This document shows, in pieces, positions 9,573 to 28,154 of a stretch of 36,065 nt of DNA. The stretch's first letter is position 1. The number at the start of each line of letters is the position of its first letter. Under the pieces are notes generated by a model. That model ran no database searches. It was not told the origin of the DNA and saw only the letters and a list, made by a program, of their open reading frames with translations. Position numbers and translations under genes: made by a program. The stretch spans positions 1 to 36,065 of the forward strand of contig CACKPV010000007.1 in the NCBI GenBank assembly GCA_902602185.1, given 5' to 3'. This stretch comes from an uncultured SAR86 cluster bacterium. Lineage in GTDB: Bacteria; Pseudomonadota; Gammaproteobacteria; Magnimaribacterales; D2472.

Positions 9573-9620
9573 TTTATTTAATTTACTACTTTTAAATCTA
9601 ATCCTTTTATATTATATTAT

Positions 9621-9794
9621 GCGTACTCTTAACAAGTATTAAAGGAATCTGTGGGTACAAAACACTCAAATAAACCAGTAAATAAAGCATTATTTGCAAA
9701 AAAGATTAATTTTATTTTTTCCTTTAAGTTTTCTGTTTTTTCTAATTATGAGTACACAAAAAAAGTATTTTGCTTTTGTGAGTACAATACACTT
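9621..9794. repeat. GRGTACA-type repeats upstream of petA
   Basis: The 231-bp gap between rpsI and petA contains a family of short repeats. GTGGGTACAAAACACT (9651-9666) and GTGAGTACAATACACT (9778-9793) match at 14 of 16 positions. TGAGTACACAAA occurs at 9749-9760, and an inverted copy, GCGTACTC, at 9621-9628. The last repeat ends about 10 bp before the petA ATG and includes the -10-like TACAAT (9783-9788), for which no good -35 was found. Function is inferred: they could be arm-type sites of a former integrase, or operators. Confidence 0.5.
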
Positions 9795-9803
9795 TAAAAC
9801 CTA

Positions 9804-10667
9804 ATGAATGATTCTACCGAGAAATATTTAACATTAAGGGGCGCCAATAATGATATTTACTTTTTTCAGAAAAGAGTGAATGACACAATAGCAGAAGTTA
9901 TTGGAACAAACTTCATTAAAAAGTCCCTCAAAACTAAAATTCTCTCTGAAGCTCTAGCTAAAAGGGACGAAATTCTTGATGCGTTAGCAAATATTGAAAA
10001 ATTAAAACTCACTAACATTAGTGATGAGGTTTTAAATCTTTTTAAAGATGAAGATTTAAGTACTGAGAAACTTGATCAAGCTTCTTATGAAAGAAGCTTG
10101 CAAAGAAGAAAAGTCTTGATTGGTTTAACAAGTGCGGTTGGCATTGCTGGACTTCCTTTTGCAGCTACACCATTCATTGCTGCATGGAATCCAAGTGCAA
10201 AAGCAAAAGCATTGGGGTCCTCTGTAAAATTAGATGTTTCAAAAATGCAATATGGTCAACAAATTCAAGTAGCCTGGAGAAAGCAACCCATATTTATAAT
10301 CAGACATACGTCAGAGGCATTAGATCAACTTGATAAATCAGTCCCAAAACTTGCTGATCCTGAATCTCTCTCAATTGATGAACCTTACAGAGGCAGATTT
10401 GTAACAAGATCTCTCAATTCAGAGTATTCTGTTTTATCTGGTATTTGTACTCATCTTGGTTGTTCTCCAAAGTATCATCCAGAAGTTGAACCGAAACCAT
10501 GGGACTCTTCCTGGAATGGAGGATTTTTCTGTCCGTGTCATGGGTCAATGTTCGATCTTGTCGGAAGGGTGTATAAAGGTGTTCCTGCACCATCAAATTT
10601 AACAGTTCCTCCTCATTTTTTTGAGGGGAGTATTCTCACCATCGGTGAGGAAAGGAGTAATGTCTAA
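9804..10667 (+). CDS. petA: Rieske iron-sulfur protein of cytochrome bc1, with integrase-like N-terminal extension
   Basis: Rieske [2Fe-2S] subunit of the ubiquinol:cytochrome c oxidoreductase, moving electrons from quinol at the Qo site to cytochrome c1. The Rieske part starts near residue 95: a twin-arginine-like signal anchor (Arg101-Arg102, hydrophobic to about 128), NPSAKAKA, then cluster motifs CTHLGC (Cys215, His217, Cys220) and CPCHGS (Cys243, Cys245, His246). An ordinary bacterial Rieske protein begins just before the RR motif, at about 190-200 residues. Here residues 1-94 are extra and continuous in frame. Residues about 8-65 (YLTLRG, DIYFFQKRV, IGTNFIKKSLKTK, SEALAKRDEIL) resemble the N-terminal domain of phage-type tyrosine integrases. 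No other ATG occurs before the Rieske part. TTG at 10098 would give an ordinary-length protein but has no good ribosome site. petB follows in TAATG overlap. Confidence 0.9.
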   Translation: MNDSTEKYLTLRGANNDIYFFQKRVNDTIAEVIGTNFIKKSLKTKILSEALAKRDEILDALANIEKLKLTNISDEVLNLFKDEDLSTEKLDQASYERSLQRRKVLIGLTSAVGIAGLPFAATPFIAAWNPSAKAKALGSSVKLDVSKMQYGQQIQVAWRKQPIFIIRHTSEALDQLDKSVPKLADPESLSIDEPYRGRFVTRSLNSEYSVLSGICTHLGCSPKYHPEVEPKPWDSSWNGGFFCPCHGSMFDLVGRVYKGVPAPSNLTVPPHFFEGSILTIGEERSNV

Positions 10668-11875
10668 TGATTGCAAAAATGTTTAACTGGGTTAATGATA
10701 GACTGCCAATAGTCAATACCTTTGAAAGACACCTTTCAAAACATCCAGTTCCAAAAAAAGTTAACTTTTGGTATTTATTTGGTGCACTTGCAACCATAGT
10801 TCTCATAATTCAAATTCTTTCAGGTATCTGGCTAATGATGCCTTACTCAAATACTGAAGAGGGAGCATTTGCATCAATAGAATACATCATGAGAGATGTT
10901 GATTATGGATGGGTCATACGTTACATGCATACCACTGGTGCCTCCTTGTTTTTTGCAATTGTTTATCTTCATATGTTCCGAGGCTTACTTTATGGTTCTT
11001 ATCAAAAACCAAAAGAATTAGTTTGGTTGTTTGGATGCACAATTTACTTAGTGATGATGGCAGAAGGCTTTTTAGGATATGTCTTGCCTTATGGCCAGAT
11101 GTCTTATTGGGGCGCACAGGTAATTATTTCTCTTTTTGGAGCAATACCTTATATCGGTGAATCACTCGAAGTTTGGATCAGGGGTGATTATTATATTTCT
11201 GGAATAACAATTTCACGTTTTTTTGCACTCCATGTTGTGGCACTACCACTTATTCTTATTGCTCTCGTATTTTTACATTTAGTTTCTCTGCATGAAGTAG
11301 GTGCAGGAAATCCAGAAGGAGTTGATATTGAAAAGTTTAGAGATGAAGATGGTGTCCCGATCGATAGTGTTCCATTTTTTCCCTACAAAGTTTTAAGTGC
11401 TTTGCCAGCAATGGGGATATTTGGTTTAGTTTTTTGTGTAATTATGTTTTTCTTTCCTGAGGGTGGTGGATATTTTATTGAATTAGCAAATTTTGAAGAA
11501 GCAAATCCACTGGTCACACCTGAGCATATTGCACCCGTTTGGTACTACTCACCTTTTTATACGATGCTCAGAGCAGTCCCAGATCCTCTTGGTGGTTTAA
11601 TTGTGATGGCTGCTGGTGTTGCTATCTTTTTTGTTGTGCCATGGTTAGATAGAAGTAATGTGGCATCCATCAGATATAAGGGAGTTTATAGTAAGTTGGC
11701 CATCACCTTATTCGTAGCCTCCTTTATAACACTAGGTTACTTAGGGACTGTGCCAGTGACAGAAATTGGAAGAATTATGTCTGTCATCTGCACTTTTCTT
11801 TATTTTGCATTCTTTTTGCTGATGCCTATTTACACCTCTTTTGAAAAAACTTCTAAAGTACCAGATAGGTTATGA
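10667..11875 (+). CDS. petB: Cytochrome b subunit of the bc1 complex
   Basis: Core membrane subunit of the bc1 complex, holding hemes bL and bH and the Qo and Qi quinone sites. The 402-residue protein has eight or so hydrophobic helices. The four heme-ligand histidines are visible as two pairs: His88/His102 and His189/His204. GYVLPYGQMSYWGAQVI marks the cd region. The Qo motif region reads PEHIAPVWYYSPFY, so PVWY replaces the textbook PEWY, as is common in gammaproteobacterial cytochrome b. It overlaps petA (TAATG) and petC (ATGA), so the three genes are one translationally coupled operon. Confidence 0.97.
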   Translation: MIAKMFNWVNDRLPIVNTFERHLSKHPVPKKVNFWYLFGALATIVLIIQILSGIWLMMPYSNTEEGAFASIEYIMRDVDYGWVIRYMHTTGASLFFAIVYLHMFRGLLYGSYQKPKELVWLFGCTIYLVMMAEGFLGYVLPYGQMSYWGAQVIISLFGAIPYIGESLEVWIRGDYYISGITISRFFALHVVALPLILIALVFLHLVSLHEVGAGNPEGVDIEKFRDEDGVPIDSVPFFPYKVLSALPAMGIFGLVFCVIMFFFPEGGGYFIELANFEEANPLVTPEHIAPVWYYSPFYTMLRAVPDPLGGLIVMAAGVAIFFVVPWLDRSNVASIRYKGVYSKLAITLFVASFITLGYLGTVPVTEIGRIMSVICTFLYFAFFLLMPIYTSFEKTSKVPDRL

Positions 11876-12699
11876 ATATTAAACTTGTAGGCCGAATTAA
11901 TCTTTTGACACTACTTATTGCGATAGTCTCTCTTTTTATAGCAAGCAGTTTATTTTCTGCCGAAGGTGGTCCCTGCAAAGATTATGGTCCTTGTGATGAG
12001 TTTCAGCCCGAACTTAATAATCTTGAATCCTTGCAGAGGGGTGCAAGTATTTATCTTAATTACTGTTATGGTTGTCATTCCCTTCAATATTCACGATGGG
12101 GAAGAGTTGCTAATGACTTAGAAATTCCAGAAGATATTTTTATTGAGAATTTAGTACTTGACACAGGTGTTAAAATGGGTGACTTAATGGTGGGATCAAT
12201 GGATAAGGAGTTATCAAAAGAATGGTTTGGAGTTGCACCTCCTGACCTTACTTTAGTAGCTCGAAAAAGAACACCCGAATGGGTCTATACTTATTTACGA
12301 GCATTTTATGAAGATTCTTCAAAAACTTATGGTGTAAATAATTTAGTCTATCCGGGTGCTGCTATGCCAAATGTTTTAGCTGAATTGCAAGGTAGGCAAA
12401 GGCTAACTTGTAAAGATATTCCGATATTTGCTGCGAATGGTGGTGAAAAAAGGGATGAAAGTGGAAATACTTTAACTGAGGAGAAATGTGGATATCTCAA
12501 AGTTGATGCAAACTCTGGATCTTTATCAGTTGATGAATTTGATAGTTTTATTTTTGATCTCACCAATTTTTTAACTTATGTCGGTGAACCTAGTCGTGCT
12601 GACCGAGAAAGAATTGGAACTTATACTATTTTCTTTTTTATAATCTTTACAGTTCTTTCAAGTCTTTTGTATCGAGAGTTTCAAAAAGACTATCATTAA
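11872..12699 (+). CDS. petC: Cytochrome c1
   Basis: Cytochrome c1 subunit of the bc1 complex, receiving electrons from the Rieske cluster on the periplasmic side. A signal sequence (about 10-30, cleavage likely after LFSA) is followed by the heme c site Cys65-xx-Cys68-His69 (CYGCHSLQYSRW). The distal heme ligand is probably Met165 (PGAAMPNVL). A C-terminal membrane anchor lies at about 250-268. The protein has 275 residues. Two pairs of extra cysteines, at 35/41 and within a loop around 180-207 (TCKD and EKCGYL), could form disulfides. It closes the petABC operon; sspA follows after 14 bp. Confidence 0.96.
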   Translation: MNIKLVGRINLLTLLIAIVSLFIASSLFSAEGGPCKDYGPCDEFQPELNNLESLQRGASIYLNYCYGCHSLQYSRWGRVANDLEIPEDIFIENLVLDTGVKMGDLMVGSMDKELSKEWFGVAPPDLTLVARKRTPEWVYTYLRAFYEDSSKTYGVNNLVYPGAAMPNVLAELQGRQRLTCKDIPIFAANGGEKRDESGNTLTEEKCGYLKVDANSGSLSVDEFDSFIFDLTNFLTYVGEPSRADRERIGTYTIFFFIIFTVLSSLLYREFQKDYH

Positions 12700-15597: not shown

Positions 15598-16059
15598 ATG
15601 TTTGGCTTTAACAACATATCTTTGGACAAAAAGGGAAGATTCTCATTTCCTGCTAAATATCGTGAGGACCTATCTTTTTCTTCTAAAATCATCTTAACTA
15701 AAGACCCTCAATATCCTGCTTTAAAGGTGTACCTAAAAGATGATTGGGATAAAATATCAGCTAAATTAACAGCATTGCAGGGATTAGATCCTGTTGTAAG
15801 AAATTTGCAATGGACAATTCTTGGGAATGCTTCAGTATGCGAGTTTGATCCCACTGGCAGAATGCATGTCCTTATCCCATCAGATTTAAAGGAATATGCA
15901 AATATTCTTGATAAAAATAGAATTTGTCTTGTTGGAATGGGGAATAAATTTGAGATATGGGATTTAGAAAACTGGGAGATGCGTCAAACAGGAGGAGTCC
16001 TTGCAACAGAAATACTCGAAGTAGTTTTACCAGAGTCAGTTAAAGATATGAGTTTTTAG
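15598..16059 (+). CDS. mraZ: Transcriptional regulator MraZ
   Basis: DNA-binding, AbrB-fold regulator that binds tandem repeats in its own promoter and controls the division and cell wall cluster. The 153 residues (152 in E. coli) hold two duplicated motifs. MFGFNNISLDKKGRFSFPAKYRE is in the first half, and ASVCEFDPTGRMHVLIPSDLKEYA in the second. LVGMGNKFEIWDLENW is the family's third landmark. The start matches the family N-terminus. The stop lies inside the Shine-Dalgarno site of ftsZ. It is the first gene of the dcw cluster. Confidence 0.96.
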   Translation: MFGFNNISLDKKGRFSFPAKYREDLSFSSKIILTKDPQYPALKVYLKDDWDKISAKLTALQGLDPVVRNLQWTILGNASVCEFDPTGRMHVLIPSDLKEYANILDKNRICLVGMGNKFEIWDLENWEMRQTGGVLATEILEVVLPESVKDMSF

Positions 16060-16067
16060 GAGAAGAA

Positions 16068-17189
16068 ATGAATTGGGAAGTTGTAAAAGATATTGATCAA
16101 GCAAAAATTAAAGTTATCGGGGTGGGTGGTGCCGGAGGCAATGCTGTCATTCATATGATGAATCACAAAATTGAAGGAGTTGAGTTTATATGTGCAAACA
16201 CAGATTCTCAAGCTCTTGATAGAGCTAAAGGTGCCACTATTTTGAAACTTGGTGGTGGTATGACAAAGGGCTTAGGAGCCGGAGCAGATCCTGAAGTAGG
16301 CAGACAGGCAGCTGAGCGCGACAGAGAAGCAATTGAGCAATTATTACATGGTTCAGATATGATTTTTATAACTGCAGGTATGGGGGGTGGAACCGGAACT
16401 GGTGCAGCACCCGTGATTGCGTCCATTGCAAAAGAGATGGGAGCATTAACAGTTGCAGTTGTCACCAAACCCTTTAAATTTGAAGGTCGACCAAGAATGG
16501 CTTCAGCTGAAAAGGGACTTGCTGCTTTGGTTGAAGAGGTGGATAGTTTAATAACTATACCAAATCAAAAACTGATGGAAATTTTAGGTGGGAATATTCC
16601 TATTCAAGATGCATTTGGACAAGCAGATGATGTTTTAAAAGGAGCAGTGCAAGGTATTTCAGACATTATCATGAAGCCTGGTCTCATTAATGTAGATTAT
16701 GCTGATGTTAAAACAGTAATGTCAGAAAAAGGTATTGCCATGATGGGAACAGGTAAATCAAGCAGCAAAGATCGTGGTCGTGAGGCTGCTGAGATAGCAG
16801 TTGGAAGTGAACTACTAGAAGATATCAATTTAAAAGATGCAAGAGGAGTTCTTGTAAATATTTCAGCAAAGGATCCAACTATGGGAGACTTTACTGAGGT
16901 AAGTGAAGTTGTTGAAGAATTTACTGCTGAAGGAGCAACTTGCATTTATGGATTAGTAATAGATCCCAAGTTAAAAGATGAATTAATGGTTACCATAGTG
17001 GCAACTGGAGTAAATCAAAAGGCTCCAAAATTAACTATGGATAAAAAACCAAAAGCTTCCATAAAACTTTCTCCAGTAGGACTGGATAAAGATTTAACCA
17101 ATGGAGACAGTAAACAAGTTGGTGCATCGTCTGCAGAGGCAATTGATTTCCTCGATGTACCAACTTTTATGCGTAAACAAGTAGACTAA
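16068..17189 (+). CDS. ftsZ: Cell division GTPase FtsZ
   Basis: Tubulin-like GTPase forming the Z ring. The G-box GGGTGTG is at 106-112 (MGGGTGTGAAP), the N-terminal nucleotide loop VGGAGGNAV near 19-27, and the T7 synergy loop NVDYADV at 208-214. After the core comes a linker of about 45 residues, then the conserved tail peptide DFLDVPTFMRKQ that binds FtsA and other partners. Length 373 (383 in E. coli). A strong Shine-Dalgarno site, TAGGAG at 16057-16062, overlaps the mraZ stop. The position is unusual: ftsZ normally follows ftsA at the far end of the cluster, whereas here it is the second gene, between mraZ and rsmH and 9 kb before ftsA. Confidence 0.98.
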   Translation: MNWEVVKDIDQAKIKVIGVGGAGGNAVIHMMNHKIEGVEFICANTDSQALDRAKGATILKLGGGMTKGLGAGADPEVGRQAAERDREAIEQLLHGSDMIFITAGMGGGTGTGAAPVIASIAKEMGALTVAVVTKPFKFEGRPRMASAEKGLAALVEEVDSLITIPNQKLMEILGGNIPIQDAFGQADDVLKGAVQGISDIIMKPGLINVDYADVKTVMSEKGIAMMGTGKSSSKDRGREAAEIAVGSELLEDINLKDARGVLVNISAKDPTMGDFTEVSEVVEEFTAEGATCIYGLVIDPKLKDELMVTIVATGVNQKAPKLTMDKKPKASIKLSPVGLDKDLTNGDSKQVGASSAEAIDFLDVPTFMRKQVD

Positions 17190-17190
17190 A

Positions 17191-18087
17191 ATGATTCATA
17201 TTCCAGTAATGCTGGAAGAATCTCTACGTTTTCTTATTACTGATAACAATGCTTCTTACCTTGATGCAACCTTTGGCAGAGGGGGGCACTCTTCGGCAAT
17301 ATTGGATTCACTCTCAGAAACAGGTTGTCTTACATCATTTGATAAAGACCCTGAAGCACATGATCATGCAACTCGCACCTTTCAGGACAACCGGTTTACT
17401 TTCATGCCGAAAGGTTTTGAAGATCTTGATCAACTAGAAAATATCTCAATTTTTCAAGGTTTTTTGTTTGATTTAGGTGTCTGCTCATCACATTTTGATA
17501 ACTCATTAAGAGGTTTTAGTCTCAACAAGGATGGGCCACTAGATATGAGATTTAATCCTACGAAAGGTTTACCCTTACTAGAAAAACTAAAACTTATAAC
17601 CGAACCTGAACTTGCCAACATTATTTATGGTTTTGGTGATGAAAAAGATTCGCACAGAATTGCAAGAGCAATTAAAAAAGCTCTAAATAAAAGTGAAGAT
17701 TTAACGACCCTTTCATTGGCAAAAATTATTGCTGATTCCAAAAGAATGAAATCTTCAAAAACTCATCCTGCAACTAAAACTTTTCAAGCTTTGCGTATTT
17801 GGATAAATGATGAAATGGCATGTTTAGAAAAAGCATTTAATACCATTGCTGACTTGGGTAAATCTGGATGTAGAATTGTTTGCATCAGTTTTCACTCACT
17901 TGAGGATAGAACAGTCAAAAATTTTTTTCGTCCACAAATCAAGCATTACCCAAAAGAGATTCCTTTAAATAGTGAGATAACCACTGCTTTCAATGAAATT
18001 GGAAAAAAAATTCGACCATCTCAAGAGGAGATTGAAAAGAATCCAAGAGCACGAAGTGCCATTATGCGTGTCTTTGAAAAAGTATAA
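17191..18087 (+). CDS. rsmH: 16S rRNA m4C1402 methyltransferase RsmH
   Basis: Also called MraW; methylates the N4 of C1402 in 16S rRNA, the same nucleotide whose ribose is methylated by RsmI, also in this window. The SAM-binding motif DATFGRGGHS is at 25-34. FLFDLGVCSSHFDNSLRGFSL and GPLDMRFNP follow, then THPATKTFQALRIWINDE and ISFHSLEDRTVKNFF. The 298 residues are slightly shorter than E. coli (313). It starts one base after the ftsZ stop and overlaps ftsL (TAATG). Confidence 0.97.
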   Translation: MIHIPVMLEESLRFLITDNNASYLDATFGRGGHSSAILDSLSETGCLTSFDKDPEAHDHATRTFQDNRFTFMPKGFEDLDQLENISIFQGFLFDLGVCSSHFDNSLRGFSLNKDGPLDMRFNPTKGLPLLEKLKLITEPELANIIYGFGDEKDSHRIARAIKKALNKSEDLTTLSLAKIIADSKRMKSSKTHPATKTFQALRIWINDEMACLEKAFNTIADLGKSGCRIVCISFHSLEDRTVKNFFRPQIKHYPKEIPLNSEITTAFNEIGKKIRPSQEEIEKNPRARSAIMRVFEKV

Positions 18088-26313: not shown

Positions 26314-26908
26314 AGTTGTTTTAATTATAGTTTTTTGCCTTGTGAATCAAATAAGTGCAAATAATGGAATAGAGATAAACTTTTTAAATAAGGTTTCACA
26401 ATCTCAAAAAATACAAATTATTGCTATCGCCAATCAAAATACTCACTCTTTGAGCAAAGCTTTGCAAAGTATCGAGTGGATTGAAACATTTGAGATACAA
26501 AAAACAATTTTTGGAAAAACGCTGCTTCAAATTAGTGCAAAGATACCTTTACTTGTTTTAAATGATACTTTCTTTGTAGATAAGTCCATGAACTTTTATA
26601 AGGTTCATGAATTTGAAGATGACTTGCTCAGGGTGAATTGTCCTGAATATCTTTTCAAAGATATTTTTTATCTTATAAATAATGTCCAAGAAATTTTGAA
26701 TTTCAGTTTAAAAACTATCAATTATGATGTTATCGAAGGGTGGCATTTGTTTTCACATTCTATGCAAATTAAGTTGGGGCACTCACCATCGTTTGATGAG
26801 CTTGAAACACTGACAAAAACTATGGAATATTTGTACTCAAATAGAAAGTTTCCAAGTATTATAGATTTACGAAGTAGTTCTGGAGTTGCCATACAATATG
26901 TCCAATAA
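26279..26908 (+). CDS. ftsQ: Cell division protein FtsQ (short, divergent)
   Basis: Probable FtsQ, the bitopic scaffold joining early and late division proteins. After only a few cytoplasmic residues there is one membrane segment (about 10-27). A short POTRA-like region follows (SKALQSIEWIETFEIQKTIFGKTLLQISAKIPLLVLND), which fits the family pattern PW-xxx-VRKxWPxxLxIxxxExxPxA. A beta domain with VDKSMNFYKV and ISANNG-type turns completes it. At about 209 residues it is shorter than E. coli FtsQ (276), and sequence similarity alone is weak, so the position between ddl and ftsA carries much of the call. Starts at 26279 or 26282 (ATG ATG) are both possible; an upstream in-frame TTG exists at 26273. 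Confidence 0.8.
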   Translation: MMKWLELLSKHKVVLIIVFCLVNQISANNGIEINFLNKVSQSQKIQIIAIANQNTHSLSKALQSIEWIETFEIQKTIFGKTLLQISAKIPLLVLNDTFFVDKSMNFYKVHEFEDDLLRVNCPEYLFKDIFYLINNVQEILNFSLKTINYDVIEGWHLFSHSMQIKLGHSPSFDELETLTKTMEYLYSNRKFPSIIDLRSSSGVAIQYVQ

Positions 26909-28154
26909 GATTTTGAAAATGCCTAACAAAAATTTAAAAACAAATGGAGACATTATTGTAGGTTTGGATATTGGAACATCCAAAGTAGTTTGTTTGGTTG
27001 GTCGTTACTCTATGTCTGGTGATTTAGAGATTATTGCCCTTGGAACCTACCCCTCCAGCGGTTTAAAGAAGGGTGTTGTAGTTAATATTGATGCAACAAC
27101 TGATGCAATTGAAAAGGCTGTCGAACAAGCTCAAACCTTTATAGAAGAAAAAATTAAGAATGTTTATGTTGGTATTGCTGGAAGTCACGTTAAAAGTTTA
27201 AATTCTGAAGGAGTAGTTGGTATCAATAGCACTAAAGAGGTTAGTCCAGCTGATGTTGAAGCAGTGATTGAGTCCGCAAAAGCAGTTGCGGTTCCCTCCG
27301 ATCAAACTATGCTACATGTGATTGACCAGGAATATATCATCGATGAACAAGACTCAATACGTGAACCTATCGGTATGACTGGAGTTCGATTGAAAGCTAA
27401 AGTTCATTTGGTAACTTGTGCCTCGAATGCCATCTCTAATATTGAAAAGTGTATTCACTCTTGCGGTCTTCATGCAAATGCATTTGTACTTGAGCAATTG
27501 GCAAGTTCATGGTCAATTTTGACTGAAGATGAAAAGGATCTTGGAGTGTGTTTAATTGATATTGGTGGTGGAACAACTGACATTGCTATTCTTCGATCGG
27601 GTTCGATAGTTTTTACTGGAGTGATTCCCATTGCAGGAGATCAGGTAACTAGTGATATCGCAGTTGCTTTAAGAACACCAACAAATCAAGCTGAAGAAAT
27701 CAAACAAAAATATGGATGTGCAGTTGCAGAATTTACTTCCGATGAAGAAATGATTGAAGTAATGGGGGTTGGTGGGAGACCACCAAGAGAGTTATCTAGA
27801 AGAACCTTGGCAGATATCATTGAACCAAGGTATGTCGAATTATTTGATTTAGTCAGAGCTGAAATTGAAAGAAATGGTTTTGATCAAAAAATTCCTGCCG
27901 GTATAGTCCTTACTGGCGGCACATCCAAGATGGAGGGTGTCGTTGAACTTGCTGAATCCATCTTTCAAACAAGTGTAAGGTTAGGTGTCCCAGAATCTTT
28001 TTCAGGAATGGAAAATATTCTTAGAAATCCAATTTATGCAACTTCAATCGGATTAGTCGTTTATGGCAAACATAAAAGTAAAGACTCAATAGGAGGGTCA
28101 TCATCCCCCAACATATTGAAAAGACTGTGGAATTGGTTAAAAAATAATTATTGA
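26898..28154 (+). CDS. ftsA: Cell division protein FtsA
   Basis: Actin-like protein that tethers FtsZ filaments to the membrane. Actin-fold phosphate loops are visible: IVGLDIGTSKVVCLVG near the N-terminus and CLIDIGGGTTDIAIL in the middle, then GIVLTGGTSKMEGV. The FtsA-specific VGGRPPRELSRRTLADIIEPRY is present, and the C-terminal amphipathic membrane helix reads LKRLWNWLKNNY. About 418 residues (420 in E. coli). The start is uncertain: ATG 26898 overlaps ftsQ by 11 bp, ATG 26919 lies 10 bp after it, and TTG 26886 is least likely. ftsZ and lpxC do not follow; the cluster ends here and rpsF has its own promoter. Confidence 0.96.
   Translation: MSNKILKMPNKNLKTNGDIIVGLDIGTSKVVCLVGRYSMSGDLEIIALGTYPSSGLKKGVVVNIDATTDAIEKAVEQAQTFIEEKIKNVYVGIAGSHVKSLNSEGVVGINSTKEVSPADVEAVIESAKAVAVPSDQTMLHVIDQEYIIDEQDSIREPIGMTGVRLKAKVHLVTCASNAISNIEKCIHSCGLHANAFVLEQLASSWSILTEDEKDLGVCLIDIGGGTTDIAILRSGSIVFTGVIPIAGDQVTSDIAVALRTPTNQAEEIKQKYGCAVAEFTSDEEMIEVMGVGGRPPRELSRRTLADIIEPRYVELFDLVRAEIERNGFDQKIPAGIVLTGGTSKMEGVVELAESIFQTSVRLGVPESFSGMENILRNPIYATSIGLVVYGKHKSKDSIGGSSSPNILKRLWNWLKNNY

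Follow-up and report, generated by a model that had tools for sequence, protein, structure and literature searches.

An integrase-type N-terminal domain and an upstream repeat array at the Rieske gene of SAR86 bacteria: a candidate self-regulating redox protein

The Rieske subunit of the bc1 complex is a membrane-anchored protein whose N-terminus lies in the cytoplasm. Streamlined ocean bacteria, in turn, carry few separate transcription factors. Two described systems are among those closest to the locus reported here, as far as the available portions of the two papers go. PutA is a trigger enzyme that binds an operator next to its own gene (PMC8249747), and the arm-binding domains of integrases bind arm sites (PMC8138268).

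Here, we describe a petA gene from an uncultured SAR86 cluster bacterium that combines features of both systems. The window, i.e., the whole stretch of DNA that was analysed (36,065 nucleotides), belongs to a 1.09-Mb assembly. We propose that the N-terminal extension of its Rieske protein is an arm domain that was captured along with its sites and that supplies the DNA-binding part of a protein that regulates itself. We consider this reading probable, though well short of assured: binding, regulation, its sign and its signal are all inferred, and there are no binding, expression or proteomic data. No such fusion is described among the literature matches listed, of which only titles and abstract beginnings were available, so its absence from the literature is unproven; a literature search on DUF6538, the Pfam family discussed below, found nothing.

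The fused petA frame and its N-terminal domain

The petA frame of the window contains no stop between the extension (about 94-97 additional in-frame residues), the twin-arginine (RR) signal anchor and the Rieske domain. Its Rieske part is an equivalog match to TIGR01416, the Rieske subunit of bc1 (189.2 bits against a cutoff of 97.4), and a sequence-only reading of this DNA, which had described a Rieske protein fused in an unbroken frame to an extra N-terminal domain, thus holds. The true start of the feature is near 9620, at a repeat array upstream of the gene. On the forward strand, the region is organized as follows:

9573..10097, plus strand: stretch from the rpsI stop to the RR anchor (array, N-domain and linker), mostly absent from other genera; limits approximate
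9620..9626, plus strand: array site 1, TGCGTAC (TTATGCGTACTCTT)
9652..9658, plus strand: array site 2, TGGGTAC (CTGTGGGTACAAAA)
9749..9755, plus strand: array site 3, TGAGTAC (TTATGAGTACACAA); a reverse match overlaps it at 9752-9758
9779..9785, plus strand: array site 4, TGAGTAC (TTGTGAGTACAATA)
9804..10667, plus strand: petA fusion frame, 287 residues, with integrase-type N-domain, linker, Tat/TM anchor and Rieske domain
9822..9989, plus strand: arm-binding-type (DUF6538-like) domain, residues 7-62, from Pfam and alignment with the integrase and stand-alone domains
9990..10088, plus strand: variable linker, from alignment A6 and dN/dS
10089..10196, plus strand: twin-arginine signal anchor, residues 96-131 (PF10399, 22.0 bits, cutoff 24)
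10398..10607, plus strand: Rieske [2Fe-2S] domain, residues 199-268 (PF00355, E 1.9e-7)
10667..11875, plus strand: petB (cytochrome b), the next gene of the operon, from the ORF list and named by eye
11872..12699, plus strand: petC (cytochrome c1), from the ORF list and named by eye

Elsewhere in the window (15598-18087 and 26886-28154), the cell-division genes are unusually placed: a gene named by eye as ftsZ sits between mraZ and rsmH, at the start of the cell-division cluster, and rpsF follows ftsA.

The fusion is a feature of the genus. Among ten same-genus (g1) genomes it is present in nine, namely the window's own and eight at 67-70% identity; the tenth, G001, gave no Rieske match whatever, and all nine genomes in which petA was found therefore carry the fusion. 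The petA genes of the family's other genera lack the N-domain. From the rpsI stop to the RR motif, the window has 531 nt, six other fused loci have 558-578 nt, and 19 unfused loci from other genera of the family have 53-121 nt. These lengths omit two unfused loci in which no rpsI was found and two fused loci (L003 and L004, the same loci as L094 and L095) with a chance FSKR-stop.

Among the relatives L094-L101, a set that excludes the window, dN/dS is 0.019-0.126 for residues 7-62 (8 pairs), 0.008-0.078 for the Rieske part (8 pairs) and 0.164-0.782 for the linker (7 pairs, with one pair undefined). The N-domain is under purifying selection, its dN/dS being low like that of the Rieske part. Conservation of the fusion and purifying selection in relatives, both of which the sequence-only reading had named as checks, were thus found. 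The start of translation at TTG 10098, which would have overturned it, is contradicted by a frame that is kept in nine fused genomes and by the low dN/dS of the domain. Its suggestion that the extension is an integrase fossil is disfavoured, because the domain is under purifying selection and is conserved across the genus.

By itself, the extension matches DUF6538 in Pfam at E 1.4e-5. This profile search of residues 1-94 had also been proposed as a check, and the result is mixed: the E-value supports the family, but the score of 25.1 bits falls slightly below the 27-bit cutoff. A single-sequence search of 61 relatives matched residues 5-67 to the N-terminal end of a tyrosine recombinase of 441 aa (E 1.2e-7, 38% identity) in G011, a genome from another genus of the same family, and that protein carries both Phage_integrase (PF00589) and DUF6538 above their cutoffs. 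On this sequence evidence, the extension qualifies as a homologue of the N-domain of a recombinase with a catalytic domain. DUF6538 is likewise above cutoff in the related loci L041, L179, L245, L247 and L249, below it in L033, L036, L037 and L250, and not listed at E 0.001 for L248.

A structural model of the N-domain (pLDDT 73) predicts strands at residues 9-12, 19-24 and 37-41 and helices at 27-33 and 47-69, in the order strand, strand, short helix, strand, long helix. The earlier by-eye assignment to integrase N-domains is therefore backed by the sub-cutoff DUF6538 profile, the G011 match and this predicted order. Structure comparison was less specific. The integrase arm-type domain 3jtz was recovered (Z 4.1, rmsd 2.4, 50 residues aligned), ranked beneath unrelated rows; the best rows were ribosome-associated proteins, such as ArfB at Z 5.9, and these are middling and unspecific. 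Foldseek returned no match for the N-domain at E <= 0.001, and the model of the full-length fusion (pLDDT 40) is unusable. NCBIfam had no match to the extension, and PHROGs gave just two weak unknowns.

Two broader identities were rejected. The protein is not a whole tyrosine integrase, as the core-binding and catalytic recombinase domains are missing: Pfam up to E 1 shows only Rieske, UCR_Fe-S_N and DUF6538. A viral origin was also set aside, since profiles of both domain types (the second is described below) found no relatives in viral contigs. The G011 integrase itself matched four records of a phage collection, only over parts of query residues 206-439.

Repeat arrays and the stand-alone form of the domain

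All nine fused loci feature four same-strand (plus) TGNGTAC sites within 230 bp before the start. In total, 37 sites occur in the 2,070 bp before the nine fused starts, a count that includes the one overlapping reverse match in the window, relative to 17 in 97,357 bp elsewhere, a 102-fold enrichment. Between rpsI and RR, 19 unfused loci contain no TGNGTAC, and 21 unfused petA loci have neither TGNGTAC nor TTGAACA in the 250 bp before RR. These counts carry several cautions. The repeat motifs were picked by eye, post hoc, from the same loci in which they were counted; loci are related by phylogeny, so counts by locus are not independent; and many of the genomes are incomplete single-cell or metagenome assemblies.

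A motif-blind test for repeated 7-mers (p <= 0.05) flagged three of nine fused g1 loci, and the window was not among them (p 0.80). It flagged 9/16 stand-alone loci, 5/5 g13 loci, 1/8 gltD, 1/2 IOR and 0/1 GltD-like loci (all described below), the one integrase-like locus L170, none for L041, and two of 19 control promoters of the window. L041, an integrase of the window's own domain type, has one TGNGTAC upstream only and no significant repeat. Similarly, a genome-wide site-pair pattern recovered the petA array in no g1 genome, because sites 1 and 3 usually carry GTACT or GTACC and in some sites TG is not preceded by A. Across 18 genomes, single TGNGTAC sites are about as frequent as in a reversed-pattern control and the clusters sit at the gene; no chromosome-wide spread of sites was seen.

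The pair pattern did pick up other places, which count against the proposal. The window's genome has a second four-site array beside lipA, named by eye (L148, G000:C2:208146-208251). The unrelated 81-aa ORF behind it ends in a hydrophobic stretch; of 107 genomes, six have a match to it, counting its own. It was dropped as a candidate regulon member, as its relatives L161, L162 and L163 are site-free within 1 kb before the start; these are the relatives that were placed, and L160 and L164 were left out of the site check. In g1 genomes, a conserved pair of sites 19 bp apart also lies where the end of a plsC-like gene faces a parE-like gene (L145-L147, by eye).

The same domain also exists on its own, as a small separate protein in several of the genera whose petA lacks it. 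Its profile matched 57 of the 107 genomes of the family at E <= 0.01. The 50 places below 1e-29 comprise the nine fused g1 genes, one integrase and 40 frames of 149-210 aa. The G011 integrase is part of profile A1, so the E-value of that protein is by construction; the same applies to profile A7, which includes members of most of the groups it recovers. A scan of the named genome collection gave 47 N-domain loci, eight fused and 39 stand-alone, of which 42 are titled SAR86 and five only Gammaproteobacteria or Pseudomonadota. The most hydrophobic 19-residue window is at the C-terminal end in 39/39 stand-alone proteins (L137 is cut by a contig end), and the proteins therefore look tail-anchored, on hydropathy alone. 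From this topology we infer that the fused and the stand-alone domain would both face the cytoplasm at the membrane.

The stand-alone genes carry TGNGTAC as well: 230 sites in ~41.4 kb, counted from 400 bp ahead of each of the 39 genes to 200 bp past it, relative to 36 in ~252 kb of the same loci, a 39-fold enrichment. The sites often overlap the start codon, where MSTN is encoded by ATGAGTACAAAT, and turn up again, in both orientations, in the part that encodes the linker. In all eight stand-alone genomes searched, the site pair lies at the gene itself. In one locus (L034:5053-5091), an additional array is laid out like the start of a stand-alone gene with no such ORF behind it, perhaps a relic of a second copy. 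In L033, L035 and L038-L040, a few kb away from the stand-alone gene there is a proteorhodopsin-like gene and, in most of these loci, coaD (names by eye).

A small integrase-derived gene of this kind could have been fused to petA by deletion or insertion and its 5' part kept only for a start codon and promoter, the domain itself doing nothing. A likely donor is the stand-alone gene, which shares both domain and sites; each of the nine g1 genomes, all incomplete assemblies, has one match, the fused one, and no separate copy; and selection could act on the promoter. Such an explanation is nonetheless quite unlikely, as the domain is conserved with a linker that is far less constrained, and as a second, different domain has been joined to petA and more to other enzymes.

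That second fusion occurs in g13, a genus of another SAR86 family, where a different petA extension was matched in 14 of 21 genomes. The frame reaches the Rieske domain in 11 of these, a contig end cuts two, and a stop precedes RR in one, G139 (L154), where N-domain and Rieske part are out of frame through either decay or sequencing error. A g13 domain profile, with no integrase in it, found a 382-aa integrase-like protein of G044 (E 4.1e-13) that has recombinase SAM-like domains in Pfam, one above and one just below cutoff, and no catalytic domain listed. The two petA domain types are only weakly alike (hhalign probability 64.9 over 20 columns). Upstream of the fused g13 genes are inverted pairs, TTGAACAC...TGTTCAAA. 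The pattern TTGAACACN{6,26}TGTTCAAA gave 12 matches, some of them one place on both strands and all before fused petA; it was found in five of ten genomes searched, which are all five with fused petA, and is missing from the other five, three unfused g13 genomes and two f1 genomes. The junction measures 427-453 nt in 12 fused g13 loci versus 34-38 nt in three unfused ones. We take the g1 and g13 fusions to have arisen independently, because both families have unfused members and both domains and repeats differ; no tree was built.

Fusions on other redox enzymes

The g13 domain profile also matches the N-terminus of GltD-length frames across most of family f1. With a mixed profile, the match lies in a frame of 549-625 aa in 26 of 28 f1 genomes sampled, the window's included, and one such protein (L165) is GltD by TIGR01318 (730 bits). 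Before the 35 gltD fusions, GTCATAC occurs 68 times in 5,600 bp relative to 12 times in 107,747 bp elsewhere. Two exact copies stand ten bases apart in 33 of the 35 loci, and L195 and L205 have one exact and one mismatched copy. In the window's genome (L235), gltB is divergent from gltD with the GTCATAC repeats between them (by eye).

Further fusions head other oxidoreductases. Indolepyruvate ferredoxin oxidoreductase (IOR) begins with an integrase-type domain in two g9 genomes (L169, named by profile, and L175), which together have five upstream matches to TATACACA. In g9 and in families f2 and f3, a DUF6538-type domain is likewise found at the front of a GltD-like FAD/4Fe-4S protein. Six SAR86 loci were read downstream of it, and in five of them the next genes are 2-oxoacid:acceptor oxidoreductase alpha- and beta-like; these downstream genes were named by profile for L247 and by eye for the rest, and the L249 contig ends inside the alpha gene. 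The motif TGTACC/GTACATGTAC occurs four times before two g9 loci, ten times before one f2 locus and 11 times before three f3 loci, with one occurrence in 21 unfused petA loci; g1 sites also score on it (16 in nine loci), because it overlaps the TGGGTACA form. In L170, an integrase-like protein of a related type, five TGTGTTA repeats lie upstream.

Across 369 genomes of the class, the mixed profile matched three at E <= 1e-6, two from SAR86 and G368, a threshold that missed a weaker SAR86 case (G038). In G368, which lies outside SAR86 (L245), DUF6538 is above cutoff (35.6 bits) on the alpha subunit, which the beta subunit follows. The domain is thus on the leading gene of the 2-oxoacid oxidoreductase operon in both settings, GltD-like in SAR86 and the alpha subunit in the unrelated G368, which is where a regulator of the whole operon would be expected to sit.

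Taken together, the repeat type tracks the domain type and not the gene. Repeats differ before the same gene with different domains (petA of g1 and of g13), and different genes that share a domain share the repeat, as expected if each domain binds its own array. This bears on whether the extension instead makes contacts with protein or RNA, in bc1 assembly or at the ribosome, with the repeats being ordinary promoter elements. The ribosome-associated structural rows noted above speak for a contact role, weakly, and we regard it as very unlikely given how the repeats follow the domain and that the 21 unfused petA loci have neither petA repeat in their 250 bp.

A separate possibility is that the domain mainly anchors a DNA locus to the inner membrane, which would be petA in g1 and the stand-alone gene's own locus elsewhere, with transcription control secondary or absent. 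Both forms would place the domain at the membrane, through the Rieske anchor or a C-terminal hydrophobic helix; stand-alone sites also occur within the coding region in both orientations; and the site pair is at the gene itself in every stand-alone genome searched. We nevertheless consider tethering unlikely. The GltD, IOR and GltD-like/alpha-subunit fusions, in whose translations, where read, no membrane anchor was seen by eye, share the layout of domain plus repeats, and sites are not spread over the chromosome in the 18 genomes.

Proposed role and comparison with known systems

We therefore return to the self-regulating Rieske protein. Under this proposal, an integrase arm-binding-type domain was domesticated, having arrived with its own arm-type sites, and would bind the TGNGTAC repeats, an inference made without binding data. 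The Rieske protein could reach the array because members of its family are membrane-anchored and keep a cytoplasmic N-terminus. Surplus or unassembled protein would then bind at the array and tune the transcription of petABC, with repression as the most probable direction, such that bc1 supply may be matched to demand. The position of the domain on the leading gene, together with the divergent gltB-gltD layout, suggests autoregulation. The sequence-only reading had allowed for a domesticated domain with a role in operon regulation or in linking the complex to DNA, and the upstream array and parallel fusions favour that option; it did not mention the repeats or the domain's stand-alone relative, nor the other fusions, on g13 petA and on further enzymes.

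More broadly, arm domain and arm sites may be a portable regulatory cassette, repeatedly captured in SAR86 at the head of redox genes or whole operons (on Rieske in two cases, on GltD, on IOR and on GltD-like/2-oxoacid oxidoreductase, besides the tail-anchored stand-alone protein). This would turn metabolic and respiratory enzymes, down to a bc1 subunit, into sensors that govern their own supply in genomes where little other regulation exists. We hold this general claim to be evenly balanced between right and wrong. If true, one subunit of a respiratory complex also works as a DNA-binding regulator of the operon that encodes it, and domain-plus-operator modules have come, ready-made and repeatedly, from phage-type integrases. 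It would hint at how streamlined ocean bacteria control central metabolism with few dedicated transcription factors and provide a natural family of domain-site pairs whose binding specificity could be read from covariation.

Relative to known systems, the petA fusion resembles in its logic the trigger enzyme PutA, a redox enzyme with an added DNA-binding domain and an operator beside its own gene, and the divergent intergenic repeat of the gltD fusion recalls putA-putP (PMC8249747, as far as the available part of that paper goes). A complete redox domain is present in the petA fusion, and a DNA-binding-type domain is in the chain by homology only. As for the operator, the upstream array is conserved and 102-fold enriched, for a motif chosen by eye that the blind test missed in the window, and its function as an operator is inferred. 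Unlike PutA, the SAR86 domain is of the integrase arm type, its sites form direct or inverted arrays, the regulation is inferred only, and the petA fusion is part of a respiratory complex.

Ordinary bc1 Rieske proteins (TIGR01416) share the RR anchor with the petA fusion, as well as the CTHLGC and CPCHGS motifs and the petABC order (the last two by eye), but not the ~94 extra cytoplasmic residues or an array of its own at the rpsI-petA junction. Finally, the arm-binding domain of tyrosine recombinases (PMC8138268, in the portion available) is similar in sequence match, in the predicted three strands and helix, and in repeated sites beside the gene; in contrast to those recombinases, the petA fusion lacks core-binding and catalytic domains and is joined to a Rieske protein.
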